Source: an uncultured Dehalococcoidia bacterium (GTDB taxonomy: Bacteria > Chloroflexota > Dehalococcoidia > Tepidiformales > Tepidiformaceae). From it: 64,000 nt of DNA. Position 1 is the stretch's first letter, and every line of letters begins with the position of its first letter. The translations under genes and the position numbers were made by a program. Below the pieces are notes generated by a model. The model had not been told where the DNA came from. It did no database searches and saw nothing but the letters and a program-made list of their open reading frames with translations. This document shows positions 1,385 through 58,045 of this stretch, piece after piece. The DNA lies in contig CALLPC010000003.1 in NCBI GenBank assembly GCA_938015525.1, forward strand, positions 62,001 through 126,000, in the 5' to 3' direction.

Positions 1385-1390
1385 AGGATA
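1385..1390 (-). promoter_or_regulatory. -10 box TATCCT, leaderless promoter for 668-1378
   Basis: TATCCT on the - strand ends 6 nt before the GTG start at 1378, so transcription should begin at or next to the start codon. Confidence 0.6.
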
Positions 1391-1432
1391 TCGGAGCCCC
1401 GGGCTGGAGGGGAGGGAAGGCAGGGGATCGTG

Positions 1433-1438
1433 TAGGCT
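1433..1438 (+). promoter_or_regulatory. -10 box TAGGCT, leaderless promoter for 1445-1816
   Basis: TAGGCT is followed by 6 nt and then ATG 1445. No Shine-Dalgarno can be placed in that space. Confidence 0.6.
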
Positions 1439-1444
1439 GGGAGT

Positions 1445-1816
1445 ATGGCCGAGCAGTACGCAGCACGGGATACCCGGACGGGACTGGAGGTGGCGGTGAC
1501 GGGCGAGTTCCCGCCGCACCCGGATGACCGGGTCCGGATTGCGCGGACGACGACGCTGTTCACGCGGCTGATGTCAACCATCCTGTCGACGCCGAACGAG
1601 ACGGAGCGGCGGGAGCGGTTCCTGGCGATCGAGACGCAGCTGGAGCTGGCGGATGCGCTCATCCGGCAGGACATGGAAGAGGTGCAGGGGCTGATGCGGA
1701 AGACGCTGGAGCGGATGGGCATCACGCCGGAGCAGATGGATGAGATGGCGCGGAAGATTCTCGAGCAGCTGCGGGAGCGGGGCGACTTCGATTTTCCGCC
1801 GTCGCTCGATTCATAA
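1445..1816 (+). CDS. Small helical hypothetical protein
   Basis: A protein of 123 aa that I do not recognise. The N-terminal 40 residues are mixed. From about residue 45 it is strongly helical and charged, with NETERRERFLAIETQLELAD, then a heptad-like LIRQDMEEVQGLMRKTLERMG and a C-terminal EQMDEMARKILEQLRERG. This looks like an oligomerising helical hairpin. There are no membrane segments, signal peptide or cysteines. Its promoter is leaderless and divergent from the methyltransferase, and it is followed by the convergent GNAT gene with a 20-bp gap. Confidence 0.75.
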   Translation: MAEQYAARDTRTGLEVAVTGEFPPHPDDRVRIARTTTLFTRLMSTILSTPNETERRERFLAIETQLELADALIRQDMEEVQGLMRKTLERMGITPEQMDEMARKILEQLRERGDFDFPPSLDS

Positions 1817-1836
1817 CCGGCACGGCCGCGGGCGGG

Positions 1837-2529
1837 TCAGGGGAGGATGGCGGGGTCGTCCCAGCCGGGCGGGGCATCGGGTGCCCAGCTGATGCCGAGG
1901 AGGCTATCGCCGCGGGTGCGGTCGACGGGGCGAAAGAGCTCCCACTCCTCGGGGGACGCTTCGATTTCGATGATGGGCCAGCCGATGGGCGCGCCGGTAC
2001 CTCGGCAGACGAAGGTTTCCGGGTCGAATTCTCGCGTGCCGTAGGCGGCGGCGATGGCGGCGCCGACGGCCTGCTGCCAGGGGGTGGGGACGATGCCGCG
2101 GCGGGGCACGACGGTGGGGTTGGCGGACATGGTGCGGAAGCTGGCAGGGTGGGCCATGCGGCCGGCGGAGAGCCAGCGCGGGGCGGGCGGCAGCTCGCGG
2201 GCGGAGAGCACGGCCTGTTCGAGCCGGCGGAAGAGGCCCTGGCGGCGGAACGCGGGGTCGACGCAGCAGAGGCCGGCGAGGCGGACCGGCTGGCCCGGGA
2301 GGCGGGGGAGGTCGAGGACGCGGGGCTCGCCGAGGGCGAAGCCGGCCGGCCGGCCCCCGGGGTCGCGGGCGATGGCGGCGAAGGCGAGGACGTGGAGGGA
2401 TTTTTCGAGGTAAGCGGCGTTGGCCTCGCGGTAGTTCTGGCGGAAGAGGGAGAGGATGGCATCGCGGTCGGCCGGGCGGAGGTCGGCGGTCGGCGTGACG
2501 GCGATGGTGAGGTCGGCGGCGGAGGTCAT
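1837..2529 (-). CDS. GNAT-family N-acetyltransferase-like protein
   Basis: A protein of 230 aa starting at ATG 2529 (TSAADLTIAVTPTADLR). It has the GNAT layout: N-terminal strand-helix, a central ARDPGGRPAGFALGEPRV, then the acetyl-CoA loop LCCVDPAFRRQGLFRRLEQ, which carries the R/Q-x-x-G-x-G/L pattern of motif A. The C-terminal third (IGWPIIEIEASPEEWELFRP) is not typical and may give substrate specificity. The acceptor is unknown. A TACCCT hexamer lies 10 nt upstream of the start (2540-2545). It is divergent from the crotonase gene at 2613. Confidence 0.7.
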   Translation of the reverse strand: MTSAADLTIAVTPTADLRPADRDAILSLFRQNYREANAAYLEKSLHVLAFAAIARDPGGRPAGFALGEPRVLDLPRLPGQPVRLAGLCCVDPAFRRQGLFRRLEQAVLSARELPPAPRWLSAGRMAHPASFRTMSANPTVVPRRGIVPTPWQQAVGAAIAAAYGTREFDPETFVCRGTGAPIGWPIIEIEASPEEWELFRPVDRTRGDSLLGISWAPDAPPGWDDPAILP

Positions 2530-2612
2530 GGCGGCGGCGAGGGTAGAGCGGCGGCAGGGGCTCCGCAAGGCGGCGGCCGGGCGGTAGGATGCGGGGCGGA
2601 GGTATTCGAACG

Positions 2613-3410
2613 ATGACGGTACGCTACGAAACGGATGGACCGATTGCGGTGGTGACGATCGACCGGCCGGAGGTGCGGAATGCGGTTGACCGGGCGACGG
2701 CGGCCGAGCTTGCTGCGGCGTTCCGCCGCTTCGAGGCGGATGAGGGGCTGGCGGTGGCGGTGCTGACGGGGGCGGGCGGGACGTTCTGCGCGGGGGCGGA
2801 CCTGAAAGCCGTGGCGGAGCGGCGGGGGAACGTCGTCCGGGAGGAGGGGGACGGGCCGATGGGGCCGACGCGGATGCGGCTTTCGAAGCCGGTGATCGCG
2901 GCGGTCGAGGGGTATGCGGTGGCCGGCGGGCTGGAGCTGGCGCTCTGGTGCGACCTGCGGGTCGCGGCGCGGGATGCGGTCTTCGGGGTGTTCTGTCGGC
3001 GCTGGGGCGTCCCGCTCATCGACGGGGGGACGGTTCGGCTGCCGCGGCTGATTGGGGAGAGCCACGCGATGGACCTGATCCTGACGGGGCGCGGAGTGAG
3101 CGGGGAGGAGGCGCGGATGATGGGGCTGGCGAACCGGCTGGTGGAGCCCGGCCAGGCGCTGGAGGCGGCGAAGGACCTCGCGCGGCAGCTGGCGGCGTTT
3201 CCGCAGGCGTGTCTGCGGAGCGACCGGCAGTCGGCGCGGGAGCAGTGGGACCTGCCGTTCGAAGAGGCGATGCGGAACGAAGTGCGGCTGGGGATGGCAG
3301 TCATCGCCTCGGGGGAGGCGCATGAGGGGGCTGCCCGGTTCGCTGGGGGCGCGGGGCGGCACGGCTCGTTCGCGGAGTTCGGGGGAGAGGACCAGGGCGC
3401 CGGGCGCTAG
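2613..3410 (+). CDS. Enoyl-CoA hydratase/isomerase (crotonase) family protein
   Basis: A protein of 265 aa with the crotonase fold: DGPIAVVTIDRPEVRNAVD at the N-terminus, the first oxyanion-hole loop GGTFCAGADLKAVAER near residue 60, and the second, VEGYAVAGGLELALWCDLR, near 105. The usual catalytic glutamate pair of true enoyl-CoA hydratases is not obvious: RRWGVPLIDGGTVRLPR carries Leu/Asp where Glu is expected. The reaction could therefore be isomerisation or another CoA-thioester chemistry. The start is ATG 2613 with a GGAGG Shine-Dalgarno at 2598-2602 and a TAGGAT -10 at 2585-2590. The 3' end overlaps the YceI relic on the other strand by 4 bp. Confidence 0.85.
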   Translation: MTVRYETDGPIAVVTIDRPEVRNAVDRATAAELAAAFRRFEADEGLAVAVLTGAGGTFCAGADLKAVAERRGNVVREEGDGPMGPTRMRLSKPVIAAVEGYAVAGGLELALWCDLRVAARDAVFGVFCRRWGVPLIDGGTVRLPRLIGESHAMDLILTGRGVSGEEARMMGLANRLVEPGQALEAAKDLARQLAAFPQACLRSDRQSAREQWDLPFEEAMRNEVRLGMAVIASGEAHEGAARFAGGAGRHGSFAEFGGEDQGAGR

Positions 3411-3595
3411 GCGCCGCGGAGGAGTTCGACGTCGGCTGCGATGCGGACCTCGTCGCCGACGAGCCAGCCGCGACCCTCGAGCGGGGCGTTCCCGGTGAGG
3501 CCGAACTCCTGGCGGTCCAGCCTGCGGGCGGCGGTGAGCGGCATGACGATTTCGCTGAAGGGGTTTCTCGCGGGGCCGTGGACTTCGGATTCGAA
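3407..3595 (-). pseudogene. YceI-family lipid-binding protein, C-terminal remnant
   Basis: The - strand encodes FESEVHGPARNP, then LTAARRLDRQEFGLTGNAP and RGWLVGDEVRIAADVELLR before a TGA. This matches the closing strands of YceI proteins (R-x-D-F-G-L, then V-G-D-E-V-x-I-x-x-D). A full YceI domain is roughly 170-190 residues; only about 62 remain. Upstream of 3595 the frame becomes Arg/Pro/Ala-rich filler without the HS-x-V-x-F opening of the family, and the region is occupied by the + gene at 3716. I read this as a 5'-deleted relic. Confidence 0.6.
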
Positions 3596-3715
3596 GGCGG
3601 CGGGGCGGGGCGTGCGGCGGGTGGAGCGGTCGGGGGTGAGCCGGCTGCCGTCAGCTCGCGGGGGAGCGGCGGTGCGGGCAGAATGGGCGGCGTGGGCAGC
3701 TGGCCGTGGGGCCGG

Positions 3716-4009
3716 ATGGCGGACGAATGCGATGTCCACCTCGTGCCAATCGTGAGCCCGGAGGGGTGCGTGTACTGCCGCCGGTTCCTGGCGGAGGCGC
3801 CGCCGGGGGAGGCGATGGGCGAGGCGGCACGGCTGGAGGAGCTGGAGCAGTGGCTGCTGGCGGGGCTTTCGGTGCCGGCGGAGCTGCTCTACCGGCGCAT
3901 CGAGGAGCTGGTGGGGCGGCGCATCAGCCTCGCGGAGCTGGAGGACCCGGATGTGCTGCTGCGGCGGGCGCGGGGGCCGCGCCGGGGGTGGGCGTGGGAG
4001 GACTGGTAG
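3716..4009 (+). CDS. Small hypothetical protein with CxxC
   Basis: A protein of 97 aa from ATG 3716; an alternative ATG at 3683 adds 11 residues, and neither start has a clear Shine-Dalgarno. It begins MADECDVHLVPIVSPEG, followed by CVYCRRF (a CxxC that could bind metal or be redox-active), a helical ARLEELEQWLLAGL, YRRIEELVGRRISLAELED, and ends in GWAWEDW. I do not recognise the family. It is followed after 7 bp by a strong hairpin shared with the convergent carotenoid oxygenase gene. Confidence 0.65.
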   Translation: MADECDVHLVPIVSPEGCVYCRRFLAEAPPGEAMGEAARLEELEQWLLAGLSVPAELLYRRIEELVGRRISLAELEDPDVLLRRARGPRRGWAWEDW

Positions 4010-4016
4010 GCGCGGT

Positions 4017-4068
4017 CCGGCCCGGTCGCCGGTGCGGGAGGGGGCACCTGCACGGGGGACCGGGCCGG
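4017..4068. terminator. Bidirectional hairpin between convergent genes
   Basis: An 11-bp perfect stem (4017-4027 with 4058-4068) closes a GC-rich loop with an inner GGTGC/GCACC pairing. No U-tract follows on either side. It sits between the stops at 4009 (+) and 4093 (-). Confidence 0.6.
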
Positions 4069-4092
4069 CCAGGGGAGGGGTGCGCCGGGGTG

Positions 4093-5559
4093 CTATTTCT
4101 GGGCCTGGATGCGGTCCTCGCTGATCCAGGCGCCGTGGAAGCCGTAGGGCACGCGCTGGGGCAGGGGGACGCGGGCGACGGGCGGGGCTTCGAAGTCCTG
4201 CGCGTTGATCATGACGAATTCGGAGCCGCCGGTGGTGTAGTCGTAGACGTAGGTGACGACGTAGCCGTCGTCCTCTGCGGTGGCGCCGGGCCGCGGGACG
4301 AAGACGCCTTCGCCGCCGTAGCGGCCTTTGCCGTGGTAGTGGACCCAGTGGCGCCCGGTCTGGAGGTCGTACTTGATGATGGCGTCGGATTCGGGCATGC
4401 CGTTGCCGGCCTCGAAGCGGGCGGTATAGCCGTAGCGGGCCTGGTAGGCGATGAGTCCGTCGTTGACGCGGGGGAAGTCGCTGACCTGGTCGTCGAGGGG
4501 CTCTTCCTTGACGGCGCCGGTCTGCAGGTCGAAGCGCCAGCGGTAGAGGACCTGGGAGGCGTCTTCGCGGATGAGGCGGCGGTCTTCGGGGTTGGGGGCG
4601 ACGGAGGAGTCGAGGGCGCCGAGGTCGACGTCCTGCATGCGGCAGGCGTCGAGGACGATTTCGGTGCCGGATTCGAAGGCGTTGAGGGTGTGGAAGACGT
4701 AGCAGGGCGAGGTTTCGAACCAGCGGACCTGGTCACCGGTGGCGTGCCGGGGGAGGATGCCGAAGCGGGCGGGGAGGTCCCTGTTGAAGTAGAGGGGGGA
4801 CTCGCCGGACATCGCGCGCTGCATGTCGAAGACGAGGGGGAGGTCCATGAAGATGGAGTAGTGCTCGGTGACGGCGAAGTCGTGCATCATGACGCCGCGG
4901 GGGAGCTCGATGGGGGTGGTGAGGACGATTTCGCCTTCGGGGCTGACGACGGAGTACTGGAGGTAGGGGACTTTGGCGCCGCCCTTGGCGAGGTCGAAGC
5001 CCATCATGTTGTAGCCGAAGAAGAGCATTTCCCCGGTTTTTTCATCGACCTTGGGATGGGCGGTGAAGGCGTGGAGGAGGCGGCCGTTGTAGGTGTAGGT
5101 GCCGAGGGTTTCGAGGCCGGGGAGTTTGATGTGGTGGGGGTCGCCGGCTTCCCAGAGGGCGAAGAGGCGGCCGTCGTGCCAGACGAGGGCGGTGTTGCCG
5201 GTATTGCCGCGGGAAGGGCCGTTGGGGTTATCGAGTTCGGGCTGGCCGAGGCCGCTGCCCCAGAGGGCGCGGCCGGCGGCTTTTTCCCGCCGGTAGGCCT
5301 CGGTCTGGACGTAGCGGTTGCGGTAGGAGACGCGGCCGTCCTCGATGCGGACGCCGTGGAGCATGCCGTCGCCGCCGAACCAGTGGTAGCTCTTGATGAC
5401 GTCGAACTGGGGGTTGGGGCCGTTGCGGACGAACATGCCCTCGATGCCGGGCGGGAGCTCACCGATGACGGGGAGGTTTTCGGCGGTGACTTCTTCGCGG
5501 ACGGGGGCGAAGTTGCCCTCGAGGAAGGGGCTGGTGACGCGGTTTTCGGCCATGACCAT
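4093..5559 (-). CDS. Carotenoid (apocarotenoid/stilbene) cleavage oxygenase
   Basis: A protein of 488 aa of the RPE65/CCD/lignostilbene dioxygenase family, a non-haem Fe(II) seven-bladed propeller that cleaves double bonds with O2. It has the family opening LPPGIEGMFVRNGPNPQFD, YHWFGGDGMLHGVRIEDG, and iron-binding His candidates in HAFTAHPKVD, GVMMHDFAVTEHYSIF, PCYVFHTLNAFE and the C-terminal VPYGFHGAWI. Length is typical. The start is ATG 5559 with GAGGTG upstream; a second ATG two codons later is equally usable. Control: TATACT at 5620-5625 and an AT-rich near-palindrome at 5591-5610 between promoter and gene suggest repressor control. Whether the substrate is a carotenoid or an aromatic stilbene cannot be told. 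Confidence 0.9.
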   Translation of the reverse strand: MVMAENRVTSPFLEGNFAPVREEVTAENLPVIGELPPGIEGMFVRNGPNPQFDVIKSYHWFGGDGMLHGVRIEDGRVSYRNRYVQTEAYRREKAAGRALWGSGLGQPELDNPNGPSRGNTGNTALVWHDGRLFALWEAGDPHHIKLPGLETLGTYTYNGRLLHAFTAHPKVDEKTGEMLFFGYNMMGFDLAKGGAKVPYLQYSVVSPEGEIVLTTPIELPRGVMMHDFAVTEHYSIFMDLPLVFDMQRAMSGESPLYFNRDLPARFGILPRHATGDQVRWFETSPCYVFHTLNAFESGTEIVLDACRMQDVDLGALDSSVAPNPEDRRLIREDASQVLYRWRFDLQTGAVKEEPLDDQVSDFPRVNDGLIAYQARYGYTARFEAGNGMPESDAIIKYDLQTGRHWVHYHGKGRYGGEGVFVPRPGATAEDDGYVVTYVYDYTTGGSEFVMINAQDFEAPPVARVPLPQRVPYGFHGAWISEDRIQAQK

Positions 5560-5590
5560 GGGAATGGGCACCTCGTGAAGGGGCGGAGCT

Positions 5591-5610: not shown

Positions 5611-5619
5611 GTCGGGGGC

Positions 5620-5625
5620 AGTATA
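5620..5625 (-). promoter_or_regulatory. -10 box TATACT of the carotenoid oxygenase gene
   Basis: TATACT on the - strand places the start point near 5613, so the inverted repeat would be at the start of the transcript. A TTGACA lies only 8 bp upstream, too close for a standard -35. Confidence 0.5.
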
Positions 5626-9980: not shown

Positions 9981-9986
9981 ATTCTA
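9981..9986 (-). promoter_or_regulatory. -10 box TAGAAT, near-leaderless promoter
   Basis: TAGAAT on the - strand with 7 nt to ATG 9973. Confidence 0.55.
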
Positions 9987-14478: not shown

Positions 14479-14484
14479 TAGGCT
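14479..14484 (+). promoter_or_regulatory. -10 box TAGGCT, leaderless promoter for 14491-14976
   Basis: TAGGCT followed by 6 nt and ATG 14491, the same arrangement and hexamer as at 1433. Confidence 0.6.
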
Positions 14485-14976: not shown

Positions 14977-17000
14977 CCCGCGGGGGCCTCGCCGGGCGGG
15001 GCGAGGAGGGCGTGGAGCGCGGCACGGGCGCGCTGGGTGTAGGTGATGGTGAGGCGGTCGCCGGGGAGGAGGATGAGTTCGCCGCGGGGGACGAGCGCCT
15101 GGCCGTCGCGTTCGACGACGGCGACGCGGGCCCCGGCGGGGAAGGCGGTGTCGGCGAGGCGGCGGTGGGCGAGCGGCGAGCCGGGGGAGAGAACGACGTC
15201 GAGCGCATCGATGGTGTCGGAGAGTGTGCCGAGGGGACGGGTCTGCTGGGATGCGGCACGGCGGTAGGCGCGGAGCAGGGAGCGGGCATCGACCTGGCCG
15301 ATGACGGGGGCGCCTTCGATGGTCGGGTCGACGACGGGGAGCCAGCGGCGTTCGTGCTCGGCGAGGGCATCGAGGGCGCGGTCGAGCGGCCAGTCGGCCT
15401 GGACGACTGCAGGGAGCGGCGCGGCTGCCGCGGCGACGGTGGCGACGTTGCTGGATTCGAGGCGGCTGGCGGGGAGTTCGGCGAGGCGGCCATCTTCGAG
15501 GGTCGTGACGGCGTAGCGGGCGGCGGCGTGGAGCCGTTCGCGGGCCTCGGCGAGGGGCAGGCCGGGCGGGAGGACGGGAACGGGGATGACGGCCTGGCGG
15601 ACGGGGAGGGCGGAGAGGAGGGGGAAGGCGAAGCGGTGGCGGTGGGCGGGAGAGTCGGCCCGCGTCGGGAGCTGTTGGCGATAGATGGTCTCGTCGCCGA
15701 CCACGAGGGTGGCGACGGCGACGGCGGCCATGGCTGGGGCGAGGAGGGAGAGGTTGCCGGTCATCTCAGCGACCATGAGGAGCATGGCGAGGGGGACGTG
15801 GGCGATAGCGCCGAACATGGCCGTCATGCCGATGATGACGAAGGGGCCGGGTTCGGCGGGGAAGCCGGGGAGGTCGCGGCCGAGCCGCCAGCAGGCGGCG
15901 CCGAGGAGTCCGCCGATGACCATGCCGGGGCCGAAGATGCCGCCGGAGCCGCCGGAGCCGACGGTAAGCGAGGTGGTGAGGATTCGGATGAAGGGGAGGG
16001 CGAGGAGGAGCCATGGGGAGAACTGCATGATGCCTTCGGGGGTGAACGCCTGCTGGACCCAGCCGTATCCGACGTGGATGGCCTCCGGGGTGAGGATGCC
16101 GATGCTGCCGACGATGGCGCCGGCGAGGGCCGGCCTGCTCCAGGGCGGCAGCGGGAGGCGGTGGAAGAGGGCTTCGGTGCCGTAGAAGGCCCGGGCGAAC
16201 GCGATGCCGGTGAGACCGGCGAGGAGGCCGAGGAGGGCGTAGTAGGGCAGCTCGCCGGGGTGGGAGAAGGAGAAGCCGCCGGCGCCGCCGAAGATTGGGG
16301 TGAAATCGGTGTAGGAGCCGAAGATGGCGTAGGCCGTGATGGAGGCGATGAGGTTGAGGAGGATGACGTCGGCTTCGAAGTCGTGGCGGTAGAGGACTTC
16401 GGCGGCCATCATGGCGCCACCGAGGGGTGCGCGGAAGATGGCGCCGATGCCGGCGGCGATACCGGCGACGAGTGCGCGCCGGCGCTCGGCGGGCTCGAGG
16501 CCGAGGCGGGCGGCGATGAGGGAGCCGAAGCCGGCGCCGACCTGGGCGTTCGGGCCCTCGGGGCCGGCGGCCCCGCCGGTGCCGATGATGAGAGCGGAGG
16601 CGAAGAGCTTGACGGGGACGACCTGCCAGCGGACACGGCCGGCATCGAGGTGGAAAGCGCGGATGGCGTTATCGGTGCCGTGGCCGGCGGCCTCGGGGGC
16701 GAACCGGGCGACGAGCAGACCGGCGGTGAGGCCGCCGAATGCGAGGAGGAGGGGGAGGGCCCAGGGGCGTTCGGGGCCGCTCCGCTCGAGGGTGCCTTCG
16801 CCGAGGGGCATCGGCGGGCGGTAGCCGGCGATGCCGCCGAGGAGGTGGTCGGTGAAGAAGGTGATGAGTTCGTAGAAGGCGATGGAGCCGAGCCCGGCGA
16901 CGACGCCGATGAGGACGCCGAGCCAGATGACGCGGGAGAGGCGGCGGGAGGGGAGGAAGGGCGAGCCCGTGCCCTGGGCGGCGCTCCTGCGGGCGGCCAT
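14973..17000 (-). CDS. ClC-family chloride channel/antiporter with CBS and TrkA-C tail
   Basis: A protein of 675 aa from ATG 17000, which has TACGAT 6 nt upstream (17007-17012). Residues 1-430 are the ClC membrane core, starting LSRVIWLGVLIGVVAGLG. The anion-filter segment is GTGGAAGPEGPNAQVGAGFG, whose Glu corresponds to the gating glutamate of exchangers; GSGGSGGIFGPGMVIGG and MFGAIAHVPLAMLLMVAEM follow. Residues about 455-590 resemble a CBS pair (PVLPPGLPLAEARERLHAA; VQADWPLDRALDALAEHERR). The last 70 residues (AHRRLADTAFPAGARVAVVER ... LLPGDRLTI) match a TrkA-C domain, suggesting ligand or nucleotide control. It exports or imports Cl- or another anion across the plasma membrane. Confidence 0.9.
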   Translation of the reverse strand: MAARRSAAQGTGSPFLPSRRLSRVIWLGVLIGVVAGLGSIAFYELITFFTDHLLGGIAGYRPPMPLGEGTLERSGPERPWALPLLLAFGGLTAGLLVARFAPEAAGHGTDNAIRAFHLDAGRVRWQVVPVKLFASALIIGTGGAAGPEGPNAQVGAGFGSLIAARLGLEPAERRRALVAGIAAGIGAIFRAPLGGAMMAAEVLYRHDFEADVILLNLIASITAYAIFGSYTDFTPIFGGAGGFSFSHPGELPYYALLGLLAGLTGIAFARAFYGTEALFHRLPLPPWSRPALAGAIVGSIGILTPEAIHVGYGWVQQAFTPEGIMQFSPWLLLALPFIRILTTSLTVGSGGSGGIFGPGMVIGGLLGAACWRLGRDLPGFPAEPGPFVIIGMTAMFGAIAHVPLAMLLMVAEMTGNLSLLAPAMAAVAVATLVVGDETIYRQQLPTRADSPAHRHRFAFPLLSALPVRQAVIPVPVLPPGLPLAEARERLHAAARYAVTTLEDGRLAELPASRLESSNVATVAAAAAPLPAVVQADWPLDRALDALAEHERRWLPVVDPTIEGAPVIGQVDARSLLRAYRRAASQQTRPLGTLSDTIDALDVVLSPGSPLAHRRLADTAFPAGARVAVVERDGQALVPRGELILLPGDRLTITYTQRARAALHALLAPPGEAPAG

Positions 17001-17006: not shown

Positions 17007-17012
17007 ATCGTA
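17007..17012 (-). promoter_or_regulatory. -10 box TACGAT, leaderless promoter of the ClC gene
   Basis: TACGAT on the - strand ends 6 nt before ATG 17000. Confidence 0.55.
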
Positions 17013-18970: not shown

Positions 18971-19088
18971 GATCGGCGGCGCAAGGGGGTAGGTGCGCGG
19001 CGCGGGCGTTCTTTACGCGGGCGTGCCGGCCCAAACCCGGTGGGGAGCGGAGGTAGCGCGCGGACGGCGGCGCCGGCACACTGCGGAC

Positions 19089-20341: not shown

Positions 20342-20719
20342 TCAGGTTTGGGTCAGTTTGGTGATGAGGGCCTGGAGCTCCTGGAGGTCGAACGGCTTGG
20401 AAAGGAAATGGCGCCCTTCGCGGGTGAGATCGTCGCGGGGGTAGCCGCTCATGACGGCGACGGGGGTGCCGGGGGCGAGGCGGTCGAGCTCCCGGAGGGC
20501 GGCTTCGCCGCCGATGCCGGGCATGGTGAGGTCGAGGAGGATGCAGGCGAAATGCTCGCCGGCCTCGAGCAGGCGGATAGCCTCTTCGCCGGAACGGACG
20601 GCGACGGTGTCGTACTGCCAGAGGGCGAGGGCGCGGGTGAGCATGCTCCGGACGGCGTCTTCGTCATCGATGATGAGGATGCGGGGGCGGCCCGGTGAAG
20701 GGGAGACCATATGTTCCAC
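20342..20719 (-). CDS. Single-domain response regulator (receiver only)
   Basis: A protein of 125 aa; start GTG 20719, or ATG 20710, which trims three residues. It is a complete CheY-like receiver: acidic pocket in ILIIDDEDAVRSML (D18, D19), phospho-acceptor D63 in CILLDLTMPGIGGEAA, the switch Ser in VAVMSGYP and K108 in HFLSKPFDLQELQ. There is no output domain. It resembles receiver domains attached to hybrid PAS histidine kinases, including the one at the C-terminus of the 58251 kinase. No kinase gene is adjacent, so it is an orphan that probably acts by phosphorelay or protein-protein contact. Confidence 0.9.
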   Translation of the reverse strand: MEHMVSPSPGRPRILIIDDEDAVRSMLTRALALWQYDTVAVRSGEEAIRLLEAGEHFACILLDLTMPGIGGEAALRELDRLAPGTPVAVMSGYPRDDLTREGRHFLSKPFDLQELQALITKLTQT

Positions 20720-20779
20720 GGTACCCGACGGGCGGCGTCATTTCCAGTTGCTGTTGGGTAAATTCAGGATTTCACAAGT

Positions 20780-22328: not shown

Positions 22329-22334
22329 TAGGAT
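22329..22334 (+). promoter_or_regulatory. -10 box TAGGAT, leaderless promoter of the HAD gene
   Basis: TAGGAT followed by 6 nt and ATG 22341. Confidence 0.6.
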
Positions 22335-22979: not shown

Positions 22980-23015
22980 GGACGGGGACCGGCGCGGGGC
23001 GTAGGATGGCGGGGC

Positions 23016-27209: not shown

Positions 27210-27215
27210 AGGGTA
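27210..27215 (-). promoter_or_regulatory. -10 box TACCCT, leaderless promoter of mtaB-amaP-scpB
   Basis: TACCCT on the - strand ends 6 nt before ATG 27203. Confidence 0.55.
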
Positions 27216-29248: not shown

Positions 29249-29254
29249 ATGGTA
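29249..29254 (-). promoter_or_regulatory. -10 box TACCAT, near-leaderless promoter of the MFS gene
   Basis: TACCAT on the - strand with 7 nt to ATG 29241. Confidence 0.5.
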
Positions 29255-30614: not shown

Positions 30615-30620
30615 TATGAT
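30615..30620 (+). promoter_or_regulatory. -10 box TATGAT, leaderless promoter for 30627-30977
   Basis: TATGAT followed by 6 nt and ATG 30627. Confidence 0.6.
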
Positions 30621-32859: not shown

Positions 32860-34089
32860 TCAGGGGGTATCGGCGTCGGGTTTTTCGAGTTCGAACGCGT
32901 CGTGGAGGGCGCGGACGGCGTCGTGGACGCGGTCGGCGGCGATGATGCAGGTGAGGCGGATTTCGGAGGTGGAGATGAGCTCGATGTTGATGCCGGCATC
33001 GTAGAGGGCGCGGAACATGCGTGCGGCGTAGCCGGGCGCGGTCTGGATGCCGACGCCGACGATGGAGACTTTGCCGAGGGTGGCATCGGAGGTCCATTCG
33101 GGGGCGCCGACGCGGGCGCAGATCTCGGGCATGAGCTGCTCGGCTCGGCGGAGGTCGGCGCGGGAGACGGTGAAGGAGAGGTCGGTGAGGTCGGCTTCGG
33201 AGGCGTTCTGGACGATGGTGTCGACGCTGATGCCGGCCTCGGCGAGGGGTTCGAAGATGTTGGCGGCGATGCCGGGCCGGTCGGGGACGCGGCGGACGGT
33301 GATCTTGGCGACGTCGAGGTCGTGGGCGATGCCGCGGACGCGGTTCCGTTCTTCCAATTCTGCCTCCCCCCGGATGAGGGTGCCGGGTGCTTCGACCATG
33401 CTGGAGGTGACGAGGATGGGGACGTTGTAGACGGAAGCGAGCTCGACGGCGCGGTTGTGCATGACCTGGGAGCCCTGGGTGGCGAGCTCGAGCATCTCTT
33501 CGTAGGCGATGTCTTTGAGTTTGCGAGCGGTGGGGACGATGCGGGGGTCGGCGGTGTAGATGCCCTCGACGTCTTTACAGTTTTCGCAGAGGTCGGCGCC
33601 GAGGGCGATGGCGAGGGCGACGGCGGTGGTGTCGCTGGCGCCGCGGCCGAGGGTGAAGATCTCCTGGTGTTCGTTGACGCCCCAGTAGCCGGCCACGACG
33701 GGGACGCGGCCGGCGGCGAGCTCGGCGCGGACGCGGTCGGCTTCGACGCGGGAGATGCGGCCCTGGTAGTGGCGGCCCTGGGCGATGATGCCGGCCTGCT
33801 GGCCGGTGAGGCCGACGGCCTCCTGGCCGAGGGATTTGAGGGCCATGGCGAGGAGGGCGACGCTGACCTGTTCGCCGGTGGAGAGGAGCATGTCGAGCTC
33901 GCGGGGGTCGGGGTCCGGGGCGACCTGGAGAGCGAGGTCGATGAGGTCGTCGGTGGCGGAGCCCATGGCGGAGACGACGGCGACGACCTGGTCGCCCTGG
34001 TGGACGCGACGGATGATGCGGCCGGCGACGTGGCGGATCCGTTCGGCGTCGGCGACTGAGGTTCCGCCGTACTTTTGGACGACGAGCAC
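32860..34089 (-). CDS. lysC: Aspartate kinase
   Basis: A protein of 409 aa that phosphorylates L-aspartate, the first step to Lys, Thr, Met and diaminopimelate. The ATP/Asp-binding opening VVQKYGGTSVADAERIR, SMGSATDDLIDLA, the amino-acid-binding LGRGASDTTAVALAIALGAD and DVEGIYTADPRIVPTARKLK are all present. Two C-terminal ACT domains (KITVRRVPDRPGIAANIFEP; VSIVGVGIQTAPGYAARMFR) are expected to bind feedback inhibitors. Size and order are those of a monofunctional LysC alpha subunit. GTG 34089 lies 6 nt after TACCCT (34096-34101). The PLP decarboxylase and DinB genes follow. Confidence 0.95.
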   Translation of the reverse strand: MLVVQKYGGTSVADAERIRHVAGRIIRRVHQGDQVVAVVSAMGSATDDLIDLALQVAPDPDPRELDMLLSTGEQVSVALLAMALKSLGQEAVGLTGQQAGIIAQGRHYQGRISRVEADRVRAELAAGRVPVVAGYWGVNEHQEIFTLGRGASDTTAVALAIALGADLCENCKDVEGIYTADPRIVPTARKLKDIAYEEMLELATQGSQVMHNRAVELASVYNVPILVTSSMVEAPGTLIRGEAELEERNRVRGIAHDLDVAKITVRRVPDRPGIAANIFEPLAEAGISVDTIVQNASEADLTDLSFTVSRADLRRAEQLMPEICARVGAPEWTSDATLGKVSIVGVGIQTAPGYAARMFRALYDAGINIELISTSEIRLTCIIAADRVHDAVRALHDAFELEKPDADTP

Positions 34090-34095: not shown

Positions 34096-34101
34096 AGGGT
34101 A
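34096..34101 (-). promoter_or_regulatory. -10 box TACCCT, leaderless promoter of lysC
   Basis: TACCCT on the - strand ends 6 nt before GTG 34089. Confidence 0.55.
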
Positions 34102-35206: not shown

Positions 35207-35212
35207 AGTATA
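35207..35212 (-). promoter_or_regulatory. -10 box TATACT, near-leaderless promoter of phaC
   Basis: TATACT on the - strand with 7 nt to ATG 35199. Confidence 0.55.
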
Positions 35213-37501: not shown

Positions 37502-37511
37502 AGTGTAGGAT
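37502..37511. promoter_or_regulatory. Overlapping divergent -10 boxes (TACACT - / TAGGAT +)
   Basis: TACACT (37502-37507, -) and TAGGAT (37506-37511, +) share the TA at 37506-37507. The first serves the DegT gene without a leader. The second gives the epoxide hydrolase gene a roughly 26-nt leader with GGGAGG. Confidence 0.55.
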
Positions 37512-39009: not shown

Positions 39010-39046
39010 GGTGAGGGGTATGGTAGCGCGGCGGGCGGCGGGGGCA

Positions 39047-42632: not shown

Positions 42633-42638
42633 ATTCTG
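42633..42638 (-). promoter_or_regulatory. -10 box CAGAAT, near-leaderless promoter
   Basis: CAGAAT on the - strand with 7 nt to ATG 42625. Confidence 0.4.
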
Positions 42639-43209: not shown

Positions 43210-43215
43210 TATGAT
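43210..43215 (+). promoter_or_regulatory. -10 box TATGAT, leaderless promoter for 43222-43737
   Basis: TATGAT followed by 6 nt and GTG 43222. This placement decides the start. Confidence 0.55.
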
Positions 43216-45092: not shown

Positions 45093-45137
45093 AGTATAGC
45101 AAGGCTTTTTTGCCGTCAACTGTGCGGAACGTATACT
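45093..45137. promoter_or_regulatory. Divergent promoter pair with overlapping -35 boxes
   Basis: Minus strand: TTGACG (45114-45119) and TATACT (45093-45098), 15-bp spacer. Plus strand: TTGCCG (45110-45115) and TATACT (45132-45137), 16-bp spacer, with 6 nt to ATG 45144 (leaderless). The two -35 boxes share bases 45114-45115. Confidence 0.65.
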
Positions 45138-51869: not shown

Positions 51870-51904
51870 CGCGGGCGCATGCTACCGCGCGGTGCGGCGG
51901 TCAG

Positions 51905-52628: not shown

Positions 52629-54218
52629 ATGAATACGATCGAATTCCTGCAGATCACGTCGTCAGTCGTCCCGGACCGGGAGGCGCTGGTGGATTTCGAC
52701 GGGAATGGCGGGGGCAAGCGGCTGACCTACGCCGAGATGTACCGGCAGGTCTGCAAGCTGGCGAACGCGTTCCAGGGCCTCGGGGTCGGGAAGGGCGACC
52801 ACGTCGCCATCATGGCGGTGAACAGCGCCGACTTCGTCATCAGCTACTACGCGACGGCGATGGTGGGCGCGACTTTCGTACCGCTGAACTACCGGGCGAA
52901 GGATGAAGAGCTCACCTACATGGTGAACGTAAGCGAGACGAAGGTGCTGCTGGTCTCGGACCGGTATCGGGAGCTGGTGGAGCGGATTCGGCCAACGCTG
53001 ACGACGGTGCAGCACTACGTGAGCCTCGGCGGGGCAGCGGACGGCTACCTGCGCTACGAGGAGCTTTTGGAGAGCGGAGCCGAGGACGAAATCTGGACGG
53101 AGGTCGACGACAAGGATGCGACGATCATCATCTTTACGTCGGGCACGACGGCGCAGCCGAAGGGTGTGCAGCTGACGTTCCTCGACATGACGGCGTACGT
53201 GACGAACCAGCCGCCGGCGGACCCGGAGACGCACGAGAAGCTGCTGGTCTCGGCGCCGTTCTTCCACGTGGCGGGGGCGACCTCGATGATGCTGGGGGTG
53301 TGGATGGGGCGGACGCTGGTGATTCTGCCGCAGTTTGCGCCGGAGCTGTGGCTGCAGGCGGTGCAGCAGGAGCGGGTGACGCACGCGTTCGTCGTCCCGA
53401 CGATGCTGAAGCGGATCATGGAGGTGCCGGAATTCGCGACGTACGACATCTCGTCGCTGAAGCAGATTACGTACGGGGCGGCGCCGATGCCGTACGAAGT
53501 GGTGCGGAAGGCGTGCGACATCTTCCCGCCGAAGGGTATTGGGCTGATCAACGCCTACGGGCAGACGGAATCGACGGCGACGCTGACGTTCCTCGGGCCG
53601 GAGGACCACGACCTGAGCACGGACACGGAAATCAAGGAACAGCGGCTCCGCTCGGTGGGAAAGCCGATGCCGGACGTGGAGCTGGCGATCATGGACGAAC
53701 GGAACCGGCCGCTGCCGCCGGGCGAGGAGGGCGAGATCTGCGTCCGCTCGGACCGCGTGATGAAGGGGTATTACAAGCAGGAGGATGCGACGGCCTCGGC
53801 GATCATCGACGGGTGGCTGCACACGGGCGACGTGGGGAAGCTGGACGAGGGCGGCTACCTGTACATCACGGGGCGGAAGAAGGACCTGATCATCCGCGGC
53901 GGGGAGAACATTTCGCCCGGGGAGATCGAGAACGTGCTCGAAGACCACCCGGCGATCGAGGAGGCAGCCGTCATCGGCGTGCCGGACGTGGAGTGGGGCG
54001 AGGTGGTGAAGGCGGTCGTGGTCCTGAAGCCGGGCGCGACGATCACGCCGGAGGAGATTACGGCCTACGCGAAGTCGCGCCTGGCGTCGTTCAAGGCGCC
54101 GCAGTATGTGGCGGTGGTGGATGAGCTGCCGCGGAACGTGATGGGGAAGGTGTTGAAGACGGACCTGCGGAAGCTGTACGGGACGCCGACGAATGACATC
54201 CCGGCGGGGAAGGCGTAG
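52629..54218 (+). CDS. Fatty-acid/carboxylate-CoA ligase (AMP-forming)
   Basis: A protein of 529 aa of the ANL superfamily, which activates a carboxylate via acyl-AMP. Landmarks: YAEMYRQVCKLANAFQGLGV, P-loop TIIIFTSGTTAQPKGVQLTF, LINAYGQTESTATLTF (A5), LHTGDVGKLDEGGYLYITGR (A7/A8), KKDLIIRGGENISPGEIENV and the catalytic-Lys region LPRNVMGKVLKTDLRKLYGT (A10). Chain length is not determinable; long-chain FadD-like use is plausible because EtfD follows. A strong hairpin terminator is 28 nt downstream. Confidence 0.93.
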   Translation: MNTIEFLQITSSVVPDREALVDFDGNGGGKRLTYAEMYRQVCKLANAFQGLGVGKGDHVAIMAVNSADFVISYYATAMVGATFVPLNYRAKDEELTYMVNVSETKVLLVSDRYRELVERIRPTLTTVQHYVSLGGAADGYLRYEELLESGAEDEIWTEVDDKDATIIIFTSGTTAQPKGVQLTFLDMTAYVTNQPPADPETHEKLLVSAPFFHVAGATSMMLGVWMGRTLVILPQFAPELWLQAVQQERVTHAFVVPTMLKRIMEVPEFATYDISSLKQITYGAAPMPYEVVRKACDIFPPKGIGLINAYGQTESTATLTFLGPEDHDLSTDTEIKEQRLRSVGKPMPDVELAIMDERNRPLPPGEEGEICVRSDRVMKGYYKQEDATASAIIDGWLHTGDVGKLDEGGYLYITGRKKDLIIRGGENISPGEIENVLEDHPAIEEAAVIGVPDVEWGEVVKAVVVLKPGATITPEEITAYAKSRLASFKAPQYVAVVDELPRNVMGKVLKTDLRKLYGTPTNDIPAGKA

Positions 54219-54245
54219 CGGGCCAGCGCACGGGCGAACCGGAGG

Positions 54246-54272
54246 AGCGCCCCGGCCCCCGGCCGGGGCGCT
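54246..54272 (+). terminator. 12-bp stem terminator after the CoA ligase gene
   Basis: AGCGCCCCGGCC pairs with GGCCGGGGCGCT around CCC; GTATTT follows, the most U-rich tail of any hairpin in the window. Confidence 0.75.
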
Positions 54273-54429
54273 GTATTTGGGTGAGCCTTTCCGGTGCCCG
54301 GGGCGTCCCCTGATGGGTCAGCGAACGGGGTTCGCACCGAAGGGGTGGCTCGGGTAGGATGCGGCTACATCGTGCGTGCCGGGGCACTGCCGGCGCGCAC
54401 CTTCGAAACCTGGTACGGGAACGCGTGGT

Positions 54430-56679
54430 ATGACGAACAGTTCGATGACCGGCAGTGGGGGAACGGGCCGGAGGGGAACACGGCTGCGCGGGAGCTGGGG
54501 CGGCATCGTCGTCCCGGTGGCGGTCCTGGCGGCGATTTCGGCCATCGAAACGGCCCGCACGACGGACGCCTCGCGCGAGGTGTTTTTCAACATCACGACG
54601 CCGTGGCTGATGTACTTCATCTTCACGGTTTCGATGGCGGTGATTTTCGGGGCGCTCCTGCAGCGGATGCGGGTGTGGCGGCTGGGGAAGCCGCACCGGG
54701 TGAACCAGAGCCTGAGCGGCCGGATTACGAACATGCTGACGCTCGGCGCAGGGACGAGCCGGGTGAAGAACGACCGGTTCGCGGGCGTGATGCACGGGTG
54801 CATCTACTCGAGCTTCGTGGTGCTGACGATCGTGACGATCCTGCTGGCGATCGACGACTACGCACCGATCGTCCTCGGGATGGACAAGGAGCACCTTTTC
54901 CTGACGGGCGGGACGTACCTGGTGTACTCGCTCGTGGGCGACGTGTTCGGGGTGGTCGGGCTCGTCGGCATCGGCATGGCGGTGTACCGGCGGTACGTTT
55001 CGCCGCCGGCGAAGCTGAACTGGGACCGGCGCGGGGCAGAGGACGCGATCATCGTGGGGCTGCTCGGGGTGGTGCTGTTCAGCGGGATCATCGTGGAGGG
55101 GCTGCGGCTCGGCGGCGACGAAATCCCGGCGGGGAACGAGTCGTGGTCGAGGTGGTCGCCGGCGGGGTACGTGGTGGCGAAGGCGCTGGGAGGTGTTTCG
55201 CCGGAGACGCTGCTGGACTTCCACGTGGCCTGGTGGTGGTTCCACGTGGTCGCGGCGTTCGGGCTGCTGACGCTGATGGCGCTGACGAAGTTCCGGCACA
55301 TCGCGCTGGCGCCGGTGAACGCGTTCTTCAAGCGGCCGACGACGCCGCTCTACCTGGAGCCGATGGGCGATATCGAGAAGCTCATCGAAGAAGGTGCGGG
55401 GCTGGGGGCCGGGCGGCTGCAGGATTTCACGTGGAAGACGCTGTTCGATGCGGATACGTGTGTGCGCTGCGGCCGCTGCACGGAGGTTTGCCCGGCGTAT
55501 ACGGCGGGGCAGCCGCTTTCGCCGATGGCGCTCATCCAGGACATCAAGACGTACATGAACCATGCGGGGCCGCTCATCCTGAAGGGGAAGAACCCGGAGG
55601 AGGAGTTGGAGCCGCTGGTGGGCGGCTACATCAAGGACGAGACGCTCTGGGCGTGCCGGACCTGCGGCGCCTGTATGCAGGAGTGCCCCGTCCTGGTAGA
55701 GCACGTGCCGCCGATCGTGGAGATGCGGCGGTACCTGGTGATGGAGCAGGCGCGGGTGCCGGCGACGGCGCAGGCGGCGCTCCAGAACCTGGAGCAGCGC
55801 GGCCACCCGTGGCGGGGGACGCAGCTGACGCGCGAGACCTGGATTGAGCAGCTGCGGGCGCAGGGCATCGATGTGCCGATTTACGACGGTTCGCAGGAGT
55901 ACCTGTACTGGGTCGGCTGCTCGGGCGCGCTCGTGGAGCGGAACATCCCGATTACGCAGGCGGTGACGAAGCTGCTGCTGGAAGCCGGCGTGAGCTTCGG
56001 CGTGCTCGGGCAGGCCGAGACGTGCAACGGGGACCCGGCCCGGCGGCTGGGGAATGAGTTCCTCTTCGCGACGATGGCGCAGGCGAATGCCGACGCGCTG
56101 AACGAGCTGGGCGTGAAGCGGGTGATCACGAGCTGCCCGCACTGCTTCAACACGTTCCGGAACGAGTACCCCGATTTCGGCGGGAAGTGGGAGGTGACGC
56201 ACCACGCGGACTTCCTGCAGTTCCTGCTGGCGAAGGGAGACCTGAAGCCGAAGGAGGGGAACGGCGCGACCATCACGGTGCACGACAGCTGCTACCTGGG
56301 CCGTGGGAACGGCATTTACGATACGCCGCGGCAGGTGCTGGAGGCGATCCCGGGGGCAAAGCTGGTGGAGATGCCGCGTTCGAAGGAGCGGGGGCTCTGC
56401 TGCGGTGCCGGCGGCGGGAACATGTGGCAGGAGGAGGCGGGCACGCGGGTGAACCACCTGCGGGCCGCCGAAGCGGCGAACACGGGGGCGAGCATCGTGG
56501 CGACGGCGTGCCCGTTCTGTATCCAGATGTTCGAGGACGGCATCCCCGCCGTGCAGCCCGACGAGGAGAAGCGGACCATCAAGGCGTTCGACATCGCCGA
56601 GCTGCTCGAGGTGAGCGTGCGGCCGACGGCCCGACCGCTGCGGGACGGGGAGGTGGAGGTGCCGCCGGGGGTCGTGTAG
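54430..56679 (+). CDS. etfD: EtfD-like ETF:menaquinone oxidoreductase (membrane Fe-S protein)
   Basis: A protein of about 749 aa. N-terminal membrane helices (GIVVPVAVLAAISAIE; TPWLMYFIFTVSMAVIFGAL; MHGCIYSSFVVLTIVTILLA; GTYLVYSLVGDVFGVVGLVG) carry His ligands for haem, including FHVAWWWFHVVAAFG. Two [4Fe-4S] motifs follow: CVRCGRCTEVCP (from residue 344) and CRTCGACMQECP (from 409). Two CCG-type domains end the protein (LYWVGCSGALVER; ITSCPHCFNTFRN; RGLCCGAGGGNMW; ATACPFCIQMF). This is the architecture of Rv0338c-like EtfD, which passes electrons from acyl-CoA oxidation via ETF to menaquinone. I chose ATG 54430; a GTG at 54376 adds 18 residues, and a TAGGAT at 54355-54360 is its likely -10. 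Confidence 0.85.
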   Translation: MTNSSMTGSGGTGRRGTRLRGSWGGIVVPVAVLAAISAIETARTTDASREVFFNITTPWLMYFIFTVSMAVIFGALLQRMRVWRLGKPHRVNQSLSGRITNMLTLGAGTSRVKNDRFAGVMHGCIYSSFVVLTIVTILLAIDDYAPIVLGMDKEHLFLTGGTYLVYSLVGDVFGVVGLVGIGMAVYRRYVSPPAKLNWDRRGAEDAIIVGLLGVVLFSGIIVEGLRLGGDEIPAGNESWSRWSPAGYVVAKALGGVSPETLLDFHVAWWWFHVVAAFGLLTLMALTKFRHIALAPVNAFFKRPTTPLYLEPMGDIEKLIEEGAGLGAGRLQDFTWKTLFDADTCVRCGRCTEVCPAYTAGQPLSPMALIQDIKTYMNHAGPLILKGKNPEEELEPLVGGYIKDETLWACRTCGACMQECPVLVEHVPPIVEMRRYLVMEQARVPATAQAALQNLEQRGHPWRGTQLTRETWIEQLRAQGIDVPIYDGSQEYLYWVGCSGALVERNIPITQAVTKLLLEAGVSFGVLGQAETCNGDPARRLGNEFLFATMAQANADALNELGVKRVITSCPHCFNTFRNEYPDFGGKWEVTHHADFLQFLLAKGDLKPKEGNGATITVHDSCYLGRGNGIYDTPRQVLEAIPGAKLVEMPRSKERGLCCGAGGGNMWQEEAGTRVNHLRAAEAANTGASIVATACPFCIQMFEDGIPAVQPDEEKRTIKAFDIAELLEVSVRPTARPLRDGEVEVPPGVV

Positions 56680-56708
56680 GGCGGTGCGCCGGTTCGTCGA
56701 ACGGTCTG

Positions 56709-56733
56709 CGGCCCCGGGGGTTTCCCGGGGCCG
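56709..56733 (+). terminator. Hairpin after etfD
   Basis: CGGCCCCGGG pairs with CCCGGGGCCG around a 5-nt loop, followed by TTCTGTG. It lies between the convergent etfD and fabF genes. Confidence 0.65.
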
Positions 56734-56772
56734 TTCTGTGCTCGCTCGGGCGGCGGCGGGCCAGCGCGGGGG

Positions 56773-58032
56773 CTAGGGCTCGTAGCGGACGATGGCGAGG
56801 CTGCTGTTCTGGCCGCCGAAGCCGAAGCTGTTCTTGAGGGCGGCGCGGACGGGGGCCTGGCGGGCGACGTTCGGGACGTAGTCGAGGTCGCACTCGGGGT
56901 CGGGGTGGTGGAGGTTGATGGTGGGGTGGATGGTGCCGGTTTCGATGGTCTTGATGGTGGCGACGGTTTCCATGCCGCCGGAGGCGCCGAGCCCGTGACC
57001 GATGAGGGACTTGGTGGCGCTGATGGCGATGCGGTAGGCGCCTTCGCCGAAGACGCGCTTGATGGCGCGGGTCTCGGCGATATCGCCGAGGGGGGTGCTG
57101 GTGGCGTGGGCGTTGATGTAATCGATCTCGCCGGGCTGGAGGCCGGCGTCGCGGAGCGCCTCGGCCATGGCTCGGGCGGCGCCTTCGCCATCGTCGGGCG
57201 GGGCGGCGACGTGGAAGGCGTCGTTGGTGCAGCCGAAGCCGGCGATCTCGGCGTAGACGCGGGCGCCGCGGGCGCGTGCGTGGGCTTCGGATTCGAGGAT
57301 GAGGGCGCCAGCCCCTTCACAGGGGACGAAGCCGTCACGGAGGGCATCGAAGGGGCGGGAGGCTTCTTCGGGGGGGCCGTCGTAGCTGGTGAGGGCGCGC
57401 ATGACGGAGAAACCGGCGAGGCCGAGTTCGGAGATCCCGGCTTCGCAGCCGCCGGTGACGACCACCTCGGCGCGGCCGGAGCGGATGAGCATGGCGGCTT
57501 CGCCGATGGCCTGGGTGCCGGCAGCACAGGCGGTGACGATCGTGCCGTTGTACCCGCGGAGGCCGAACTGGAGGGCGACCTGGGCGGCGGCCATGTTCCC
57601 GAGGGAGCGGGCGAAGAAGAGGGGGTCGATGCGCATGCCGCCGCGTTCGAAGAGTGTGCGGGCGGCTTCCTGGATATCGGGGTACCCGCCGCCGCCGTTG
57701 CCGATGAGGACGGCGAGGCGGTCGCGGTCCTCGGCATCGAGGTCGAGCCGGGCGTCGTCGATGGCCTGTGCGGCGGCGCCGACCATGAGCTGGCTGAAGC
57801 GCGCCATGCGGCGGGCGGCCTTGCGCTCGATGTAGCGGGTCGGGTCCCAGTCTTTGATTTCGCCCGCGAACTTGCAGGGGTAGCCGGCGGGGTCGACCAT
57901 CGTGAGGTGGCCGATGCCGGAGCGGCCGGCGACGAGGTTCTGCCAGAATTCTTCGACGGTCTGGCCGGCGGGGGTGATAGCGCCCAGGCCGGTGACGACG
58001 ACGCGGGTTCGCGAGCGCAGCGTATCGTTCAT
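56773..58032 (-). CDS. fabF: 3-oxoacyl-[ACP] synthase II (FabF-type)
   Basis: A protein of 419 aa that condenses malonyl-ACP with acyl-ACP. VVVTGLGAITPAGQTVEEFW opens the protein. The C-H-H triad is C169 in TACAAGTQAIGEAAM, His in YINAHATSTPLGDIAE and His in KSLIGHGLGASGGMETVA. Also present are PFDALRDGFVPCEGAGALIL and the C-terminal FGFGGQNSSLAIVRYEP. TACCAT (58040-58045) lies 7 nt before ATG 58032. It has no adjacent ACP or other fab genes. Confidence 0.95.
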   Translation of the reverse strand: MNDTLRSRTRVVVTGLGAITPAGQTVEEFWQNLVAGRSGIGHLTMVDPAGYPCKFAGEIKDWDPTRYIERKAARRMARFSQLMVGAAAQAIDDARLDLDAEDRDRLAVLIGNGGGGYPDIQEAARTLFERGGMRIDPLFFARSLGNMAAAQVALQFGLRGYNGTIVTACAAGTQAIGEAAMLIRSGRAEVVVTGGCEAGISELGLAGFSVMRALTSYDGPPEEASRPFDALRDGFVPCEGAGALILESEAHARARGARVYAEIAGFGCTNDAFHVAAPPDDGEGAARAMAEALRDAGLQPGEIDYINAHATSTPLGDIAETRAIKRVFGEGAYRIAISATKSLIGHGLGASGGMETVATIKTIETGTIHPTINLHHPDPECDLDYVPNVARQAPVRAALKNSFGFGGQNSSLAIVRYEP

Positions 58033-58039
58033 GTGGCGT

Positions 58040-58045
58040 ATGGTA
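58040..58045 (-). promoter_or_regulatory. -10 box TACCAT, near-leaderless promoter of fabF
   Basis: TACCAT on the - strand with 7 nt to ATG 58032. Confidence 0.5.

Follow-up and report, generated by a model that had tools for sequence, protein, structure and literature searches.

The window analyzed here is the whole 64,000-nucleotide (nt) stretch formed by bases 62001-126000 of contig C3, which belongs to a genome of 2.49 Mb in 37 contigs. The closest named relatives of its aspartokinase, at 98% identity, come from Tepidiforma flava and a Tepidiforma metagenome-assembled genome (MAG); in NCBI taxonomy the genus Tepidiforma is placed in Chloroflexota, Tepidiformia. The element under study is a hexamer, TANNNT, standing just before start codons on both strands, which the initial annotation had read as the -10 element of leaderless promoters set 6 or 7 nt before the start. 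This distance, the number of nucleotides between the end of the hexamer and the start codon, is called the spacer below. All of the 18 hexamers listed in that annotation were found at the spacing given for them; 16 were strict TANNNT and two were CANNNT.

On the plus strand, a 6-nt spacer separates TAGGCT (1433..1438) from ATG 1445, which opens a 123-amino-acid protein with no Pfam match, and the same word (14479..14484) from ATG 14491, the start of a 161-amino-acid protein likewise unmatched in Pfam. The -10-like CACACT (19077..19082) precedes ATG 19089 of a protein with a TrmO N-terminal domain, TAGGAT (22329..22334) precedes ATG 22341 of a HAD hydrolase, and TATGAT occurs both at 30615..30620, before ATG 30627 of a protein with no Pfam match, and at 43210..43215, before GTG 43222 of a DinB family member. 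TATACT (45132..45137) precedes ATG 45144 of a protein with a LigD primase-polymerase domain. On the minus strand, the 6-nt spacer is found between TATCCT (1385..1390) and GTG 1378 (methyltransferase domain), TACGAT (17007..17012) and ATG 17000 (CLC channel family), TACCCT (27210..27215) and ATG 27203 (UPF0004 and radical SAM domains, an MtaB-like protein), TACCCT (34096..34101) and GTG 34089 (aspartokinase, with AA_kinase and ACT domains), and TACACT (37502..37507) and ATG 37495 (DegT aminotransferase family). The remaining minus-strand hexamers lie 7 nt before the start, namely, TACAGT (647..652) before GTG 639, TAGAAT (9981..9986) before ATG 9973 of an alpha/beta hydrolase, TACCAT (29249..29254) before ATG 29241 of an MFS transporter, TATACT (35207..35212) before ATG 35199 of a PHB depolymerase C-terminal family member, the -10-like CAGAAT (42633..42638) before ATG 42625 of a phosphotriesterase family member, and TACCAT (58040..58045) before ATG 58032 of a FabF-like beta-ketoacyl synthase.

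The hexamer peak before start codons

Since a circular choice of start codons had to be avoided, genes were called with a purpose-written program that combines coding potential with a small start-codon bonus and is blind to upstream sequence. This caller agreed with 16 of the 18 listed starts. It picked 30660 over 30627, which is the weakest case, and left uncalled the gene starting at 639 on the minus strand, which overruns the left edge of the window. Within the window, strict TANNNT stood at spacer 6 or 7 in 15 of the 63 counted genes, compared with the approximately 0.4 expected from shuffles (binomial p 6e-20).

The initial annotation had named a genome-wide count against a shuffled control as a check of its claim. 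We scanned 1,188,665 bp (48% of 2.49 Mb), in which 1105 genes were called and 1096 were usable, and took the chance level of strict TANNNT at each spacer from 50 dinucleotide shuffles. The peak was present over this half of the genome. The hexamer was found 1, 3, 2, 61, 36, 21, 13, and 6 times at spacers 3, 4, 5, 6, 7, 8, 9, and 10, respectively, with shuffle means of 2.8 to 3.6 per spacer (about 3.4), and spacers 6 to 9 together gave 131 strict TANNNT against about 13.7 expected. The spacing of 6 to 7 nt that had been proposed was thus confirmed as the position of the peak, but it was drawn too narrowly, 8 and 9 nt being raised as well, so that the tolerated range is 6 to 9 nt. A second, broad rise of TANNNT was seen at 27 to 45 nt upstream.

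We also fitted the upstream sequences, unsupervised, to three classes, TA-led, Shine-Dalgarno, and neither, which took up 22.1, 64.0, and 13.9% of the genes, respectively. The spacing within the TA class was 6 nt in 42%, 7 nt in 31%, 8 nt in 12%, and 9 nt in 9%; in the fitted motif, C or T occupied the third place in 65%. TA was the best class for 249 of the 1096 genes, 191 of them with a posterior above 0.8; 209 of the 249 retained the motif-free start, and their start codons were 78% ATG and 22% GTG. Three shuffles with fixed parameters gave 96, 98, and 108 genes by best class and 25, 28, and 40 with a posterior above 0.8, and in a single refit on shuffled upstream sequences no such TA motif emerged. 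The share of genes that look leaderless is about 15 to 22%, with about 15% as the conservative figure. Apparent leaderless promoters are widespread in the sense of a large minority, the main mode of initiation being the Shine-Dalgarno one.

Promoter features and initiation signals

The hexamer is found at the first genes of transcription units and is rare inside operons. By best class, 34% of the divergent genes were TA-led, compared with 5% of the co-directional ones separated by less than 10 nt; with a posterior above 0.8, the numbers were 93/342 and 6/279, respectively (p 3e-20). Ten relatives, pooled, gave 39/254 divergent against 2/95 closely spaced co-directional genes. Co-directional genes preceded by a gap of at least 100 nt had a low TA share too (14%), possibly as a result of start errors.

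Further bases around the hexamer were enriched in the 191 genes. TG stood directly 5' of it in 31 of them, against 8.3, and TTG was found 23 nt before it (a 17-nt spacer), at the distance of a -35 element, in 9 of them, against a mean of 1.3 elsewhere, a weak signal. Transcripts commonly begin with a purine after a pyrimidine, and C directly before the start codon is what would be expected if they did so at the start codon itself; C was indeed found there in 79% of 87 spacer-6 genes and in 49% of 592 Shine-Dalgarno genes. In this genome, GTG starts were concentrated at spacer 6 (21/61, compared with 4/70 at spacers 7 to 9; p 3e-5). Relatives showed the same direction without reaching significance (12/43 and 6/53, p 0.06; without T. 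flava 7/32 and 5/44, p 0.34).

Divergent genes with a Shine-Dalgarno stretch offered a comparison. The 160 such genes carried 145 TANNNT within 120 nt, 91 of which lay 24 to 53 nt upstream and were accompanied by a similar weak -35, while the 93 TA-led divergent genes had only 6 TANNNT at 24 to 53 nt. The hexamers 24 to 53 nt upstream, with their matching weak -35, therefore appear to be the promoters of leadered transcripts in this genome.

It had also been proposed that the hexamer leaves no place for a Shine-Dalgarno sequence. With starts chosen free of the motif, Shine-Dalgarno 4-mers in -16..-4 were rare in hexamer genes (11/131, compared with 488/965 others), and so was GGAGG or AGGAG anywhere in -35..-1 (7/131, compared with 308/965 others). 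The tail of the 16S ribosomal RNA, GGATCACCTCCTTT, has an intact anti-Shine-Dalgarno in this genome, in T. flava, and in KatS3mg064; a search for 16S in two other genomes of the clade found none.

Loss of the ribosomal protein bS21 was considered as the enabling change and was rejected, since bS21 was found in 21 of the 21 Chloroflexota genomes searched, leaderless-rich or otherwise. No bS21 match came from the Thermus and Deinobacterium controls, nor from a Corynebacterium control, but the latter carries little weight, as ribosomal protein S9 was missed there too. Loss of bS21, which would fit the Thermus and Deinobacterium controls, is thus not required, the sampled clade having retained the protein.

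Conservation in orthologues and extent across Chloroflexota

If the hexamer is tied to the start codon, it should move with it, and the MtaB orthologues allow this to be followed. Considered were 22 of 38 genomes, namely, our own, G156, and 20 better matches (68 to 92% identity); seven nearly full-length matches (57 to 69% identity) and some fragments lay outside the count. The position of the start codon varied among the 22 genomes, from 4 to 10 codons ahead of the conserved block, and TANNNT nevertheless kept a distance of 6 to 9 nt from it in 21 of the 22, our own included. The exception, L289 (G178), has a strong Shine-Dalgarno stretch in place of the hexamer. FabF gave a similar result: of 13 clade members, again counting our own, 12 had TANNNT at 6 to 9 nt, and the codons following the ATG were alike in 11 relatives of at least 70% identity. 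The thirteenth member, L144 (G008), has GGAGG and also an upstream GTG with a hexamer at 9 nt. In L289 and L144 the leaderless arrangement seems to have been swapped for a Shine-Dalgarno one, a natural switch of initiation mode. Outside the clade, none of 20 FabF rows had TANNNT at 6 to 10 nt from candidate starts, except G031 at an alternative ATG.

For aspartokinase, among the best 22 of 80 loci, all 22 relatives (67 to 98% identity) had either TANNNT (8) or CATCCT (14) at 6 to 9 nt, while other blocks of four spacers gave 0, 0, 0, 1, and 0. Six poorer loci (Chloroflexota or unnamed, 52 to 58% identity), whose starts are uncertain, showed no evident counterpart of the hexamer. CATCCT in the aspartokinase upstream sequences (L042-L063) is the identical word in deep branches, often inside a longer common GGCGCATCCT, and this promoter is perhaps constrained or regulated. 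Two of these loci, L044 (titled Holophagae) and L045 (titled Anaerolinea), encode aspartokinases 90 and 82% identical to our own and probably belong to misnamed MAGs.

The comparison with T. flava covered contig C3 only, with 97 aligned starts, 31 of them in the TA class. Eight of the 31 TA genes were dropped because they had no recognizable hexamer at 5 to 10 nt or no aligned start codon; of the remaining 23, 21 retained the hexamer, 18 with unchanged spacing. When a hexamer in T. flava was not required, the core bases of TANNNT were kept in 56/69 cases and the flanks in 213/322 (p 0.015). Among the listed genes, the hexamer is kept in T. flava before 1445, 14491, 19089, and 45144 on the plus strand and before 1378, 9973, 35199, and 37495 on the minus strand, and as CANNNT before 42625; the spacer is 7 in the orthologue of 22341, and the hexamer of 43222 is not kept. 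The start at 17000 has no row in this comparison. For 29241 the aligned codon is not a start in T. flava, and an ATG 9 nt upstream has, by eye, TACGAT at 7 nt.

The window holds further candidates. TAGGAT (23002..23007, plus strand) lies 8 nt before ATG 23016 of an alpha/beta hydrolase, TAGCAT (51879..51884, minus strand) 9 nt before ATG 51869, and TACCCT (2540..2545, minus strand) 10 nt before ATG 2529 of a protein with no Pfam match, each with equal spacing in T. flava. On the minus strand, TACCGT (20718..20723) has a 7-nt spacer to the start at 20710, whose aligned T. flava codon is not a start, and TACCAT (39020..39025) lies 10 nt before ATG 39009 of an ArsR-family regulator, where T. flava has, by eye, TACGAT at 11 nt.

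Beyond single genes, we surveyed relatives by strict TANNNT counts in samples of 80 to 140 kb, with 100 shuffles each and with the gene caller seeded by a second rule. Strict counts were used because separate three-class fits to such samples from nine relatives were overfitted, with a TA share of up to 46% and zero genes called for UBA2991, and were dropped. Ten relatives, with 707 genes in all, had 96 TANNNT at 6 to 9 nt where about 10 would be expected, and each of the ten exceeded the maximum of its shuffles, most narrowly G010 and G009 (4 against 3). Nine outsiders gave 40 in 506 genes, against about 31 expected, and eight of them were within their shuffle maximum. Among the outsiders, G108 (30% GC) had 17 against 13.6 and is uninformative, TANNNT being common by chance there, and G132, the outsider closest in the FabF tree, had 1 in 61 genes (1.1 expected). 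The 11 rows labeled leaderless-rich formed a single branch of that tree, with 100/100 support; they comprise our own genome, all but one of the ten sampled relatives, and also G002, from outside the strict-count survey, of which only the aspartokinase, FabF, and MtaB genes were read. The surveyed relative G009 is outside the tree, its best FabF match being a paralogue (49%). Relatives and outsiders are represented by single samples each, covering few families of the class. Within this sampling, the hexamer peak is present in this lineage and absent from most outsiders.

Strand asymmetry was a further property of this DNA. The skew of G over C is 0.22 (window plus 1.5 kb), which is very strong though both strands bear genes, and the GC skew at third positions is +0.33 in plus-strand genes and -0.63 in minus-strand genes. 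Across sampled contigs of this genome the skew took values between -0.24 and +0.26, one contig being near 0; it was -0.20 in the T. flava stretch and weaker in other samples of the clade. Long, nearly pure pyrimidine tracts of the CTCC type lie upstream of the aspartokinase promoter at 34089 (minus strand) and of its T. flava and KatS3mg064 orthologues (L042 and L043), and are perhaps merely a product of this asymmetry.

Interpretation and comparison with known systems

Placement at the first genes of transcription units, the scarcity of Shine-Dalgarno sequences, and the way the hexamer tracks the start codon in relatives support the leaderless-promoter interpretation of the initial annotation. 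We consider it very probable, judging from sequence, that in Tepidiforma a -10 element TANNNT set 6 to 9 nt before the start codon gives rise to leaderless mRNA. A housekeeping promoter, presumably of the sigma-70 type, would be placed so that its -10 hexamer ends 6 to 9 nt before the start, and RNA polymerase would begin the transcript at, or a few nucleotides from, the A of ATG or the G of GTG, with the initial base of that codon as the presumed exact start. The ribosome would then take up the leaderless mRNA through its 5'-terminal start codon, probably without Shine-Dalgarno pairing. Other genes seem to use a similar promoter placed farther upstream, together with a Shine-Dalgarno sequence.

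The hexamer occupies the usual place of ribosome-contacting signals, and a 2017 survey (PMC5397173) includes the statement that AT-rich bias before starts does not simply reflect leaderless promoters and may represent S1 sites. It could be a translation signal, AT-rich or bound by S1, that is carried by a leadered mRNA, rather than a promoter element. Genes inside operons need translation as well, yet the hexamer is nearly missing from them (6/279 against 93/342); TTG and TG are enriched at the positions of a -35 and an extended -10; and divergent Shine-Dalgarno genes have a like hexamer mostly 24 to 53 nt upstream. We therefore regard a translation signal as very unlikely. About equally improbable is that the promoters are ordinary leadered ones and the listed starts mis-chosen, the true starts lying downstream behind a Shine-Dalgarno sequence. 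The N-termini do differ among some relatives, and for one of the 18 starts, 30627, the motif-free caller preferred another codon; on the other hand, this caller selected 16 of the 18, the MtaB hexamer stays (in 21 of 22) 6 to 9 nt ahead of a start that itself shifts relative to the conserved block, and the FabF codons after the ATG are alike in the 11 closer relatives. At spacer 6 the hexamer shares the reading frame of the start, TAG or TAA there being a stop codon, and the spacing could in principle stem from such in-frame stops or from chance in a high-GC genome. Spacers 7 and 8, which are out of frame, are high, while 3 and 12, in the frame of 6, are at background, and C or T fills the third motif position in 65%; on these grounds in-frame stops were rejected as the source. 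The peak also appears in UBA2991, at 54.6% GC (11 against 1.6), and we give this explanation hardly any credence.

Several observations weigh against the leaderless-promoter interpretation or narrow it. More than one start is possible in 9 of the 21 positive MtaB genomes, where the hexamer-bearing one was taken, and L283 has an additional upstream ATG with a Shine-Dalgarno-like stretch. In T. flava, 2 of the 23 hexamers were scored as lost, one of them actually standing at 11 nt, and the three N positions were kept in 57/69 cases too, so that substitution rates fail to single out the core. The -35 of TA-led genes is weak. The hexamer sits on the Shine-Dalgarno site, and the mutual exclusion of the two is partly a matter of room. 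The 96 to 108 genes that persist in the TA class under fixed-parameter shuffling mean that the share of 22% may be high. Finally, the outsider G076, which shares the class, had 8 hexamers against a mean of 3.0 and a shuffle maximum of 7, which blurs the boundary of the clade.

As to the history of the leaderless arrangement, we tentatively suggest, at somewhat less than even odds, that wholesale leaderless expression has a single origin within Chloroflexota, at the root of the Tepidiforma clade, and that bS21 and the anti-Shine-Dalgarno tail, the latter seen in Tepidiforma, were retained. Single genes would since have switched modes, among them MtaB in L289 and perhaps also FabF in L144. The same scenario would have GTG used only at spacer 6, as if its G were the first transcribed base, and ATG at 6 to 9 nt. 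Its odds are lowered by G076 and by the sampled relative missing from the tree. If the GTG trend is true, sequence alone would reveal the first transcribed base. In Tepidiforma and its relatives, start codons could be corrected by means of a -10 at 6 to 9 nt. Cultured, named Tepidiforma species exist, and G132 provides a sampled near relative without the leaderless arrangement. Tepidiforma is apparently one more bacterial lineage with leaderless expression as a main mode. In the open-access literature on Tepidiforma, Dehalococcoid, and Chloroflexota, our searches turned up no account of leaderless genes being abundant in this clade. A 2024 survey (PMC10783764) tabulates Shine-Dalgarno use and, under per cent, gives 50 for Tepidiformia.

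The mechanism itself is already known from Actinobacteria and Deinococcota, whereas the lineage and the level of use seem new. The Actinobacteria (Streptomyces, Mycobacterium) share with Tepidiforma a TANNNT -10 in high-GC genomes and differ in phylum; GTG starts are allowed in their leaderless genes. Deinococcus-Thermus has the same hexamer adjoining the open reading frame (ORF), with Shine-Dalgarno genes alongside. In D. radiodurans, TANNNT adjoining the ORF, with a dispensable -35, is described for about one third of ORFs, and mutation and reporter assays showed that bases 1, 2, and 6 are needed for expression (PMC12340547). The same article (Zhong et al. 2025) presents a scan of the bacterial domain whose main text does not mention Chloroflexi by name, and which may include the Tepidiforma lineage. 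Tepidiforma differs from Deinococcus-Thermus in phylum, in its lower predicted share (about 15 to 22%), and in bS21, which is kept in the 21 Chloroflexota genomes, whereas neither the Thermus nor the Deinobacterium control had a match. Zheng et al. 2011 (PMC3160421) give averages for leaderless genes of 19.2% in Actinobacteria and 39.4% in Deinococcus-Thermus, and for Chloroflexi list 4 of 12 genomes with 4.0 to 5.7% (4.7%), of medium GC and with a TAtaaT-like signal. Relative to these Chloroflexi figures, Tepidiforma belongs to the same phylum and uses the same class of signal, in its TANNNT form, at a share three to five times higher by a different counting method.

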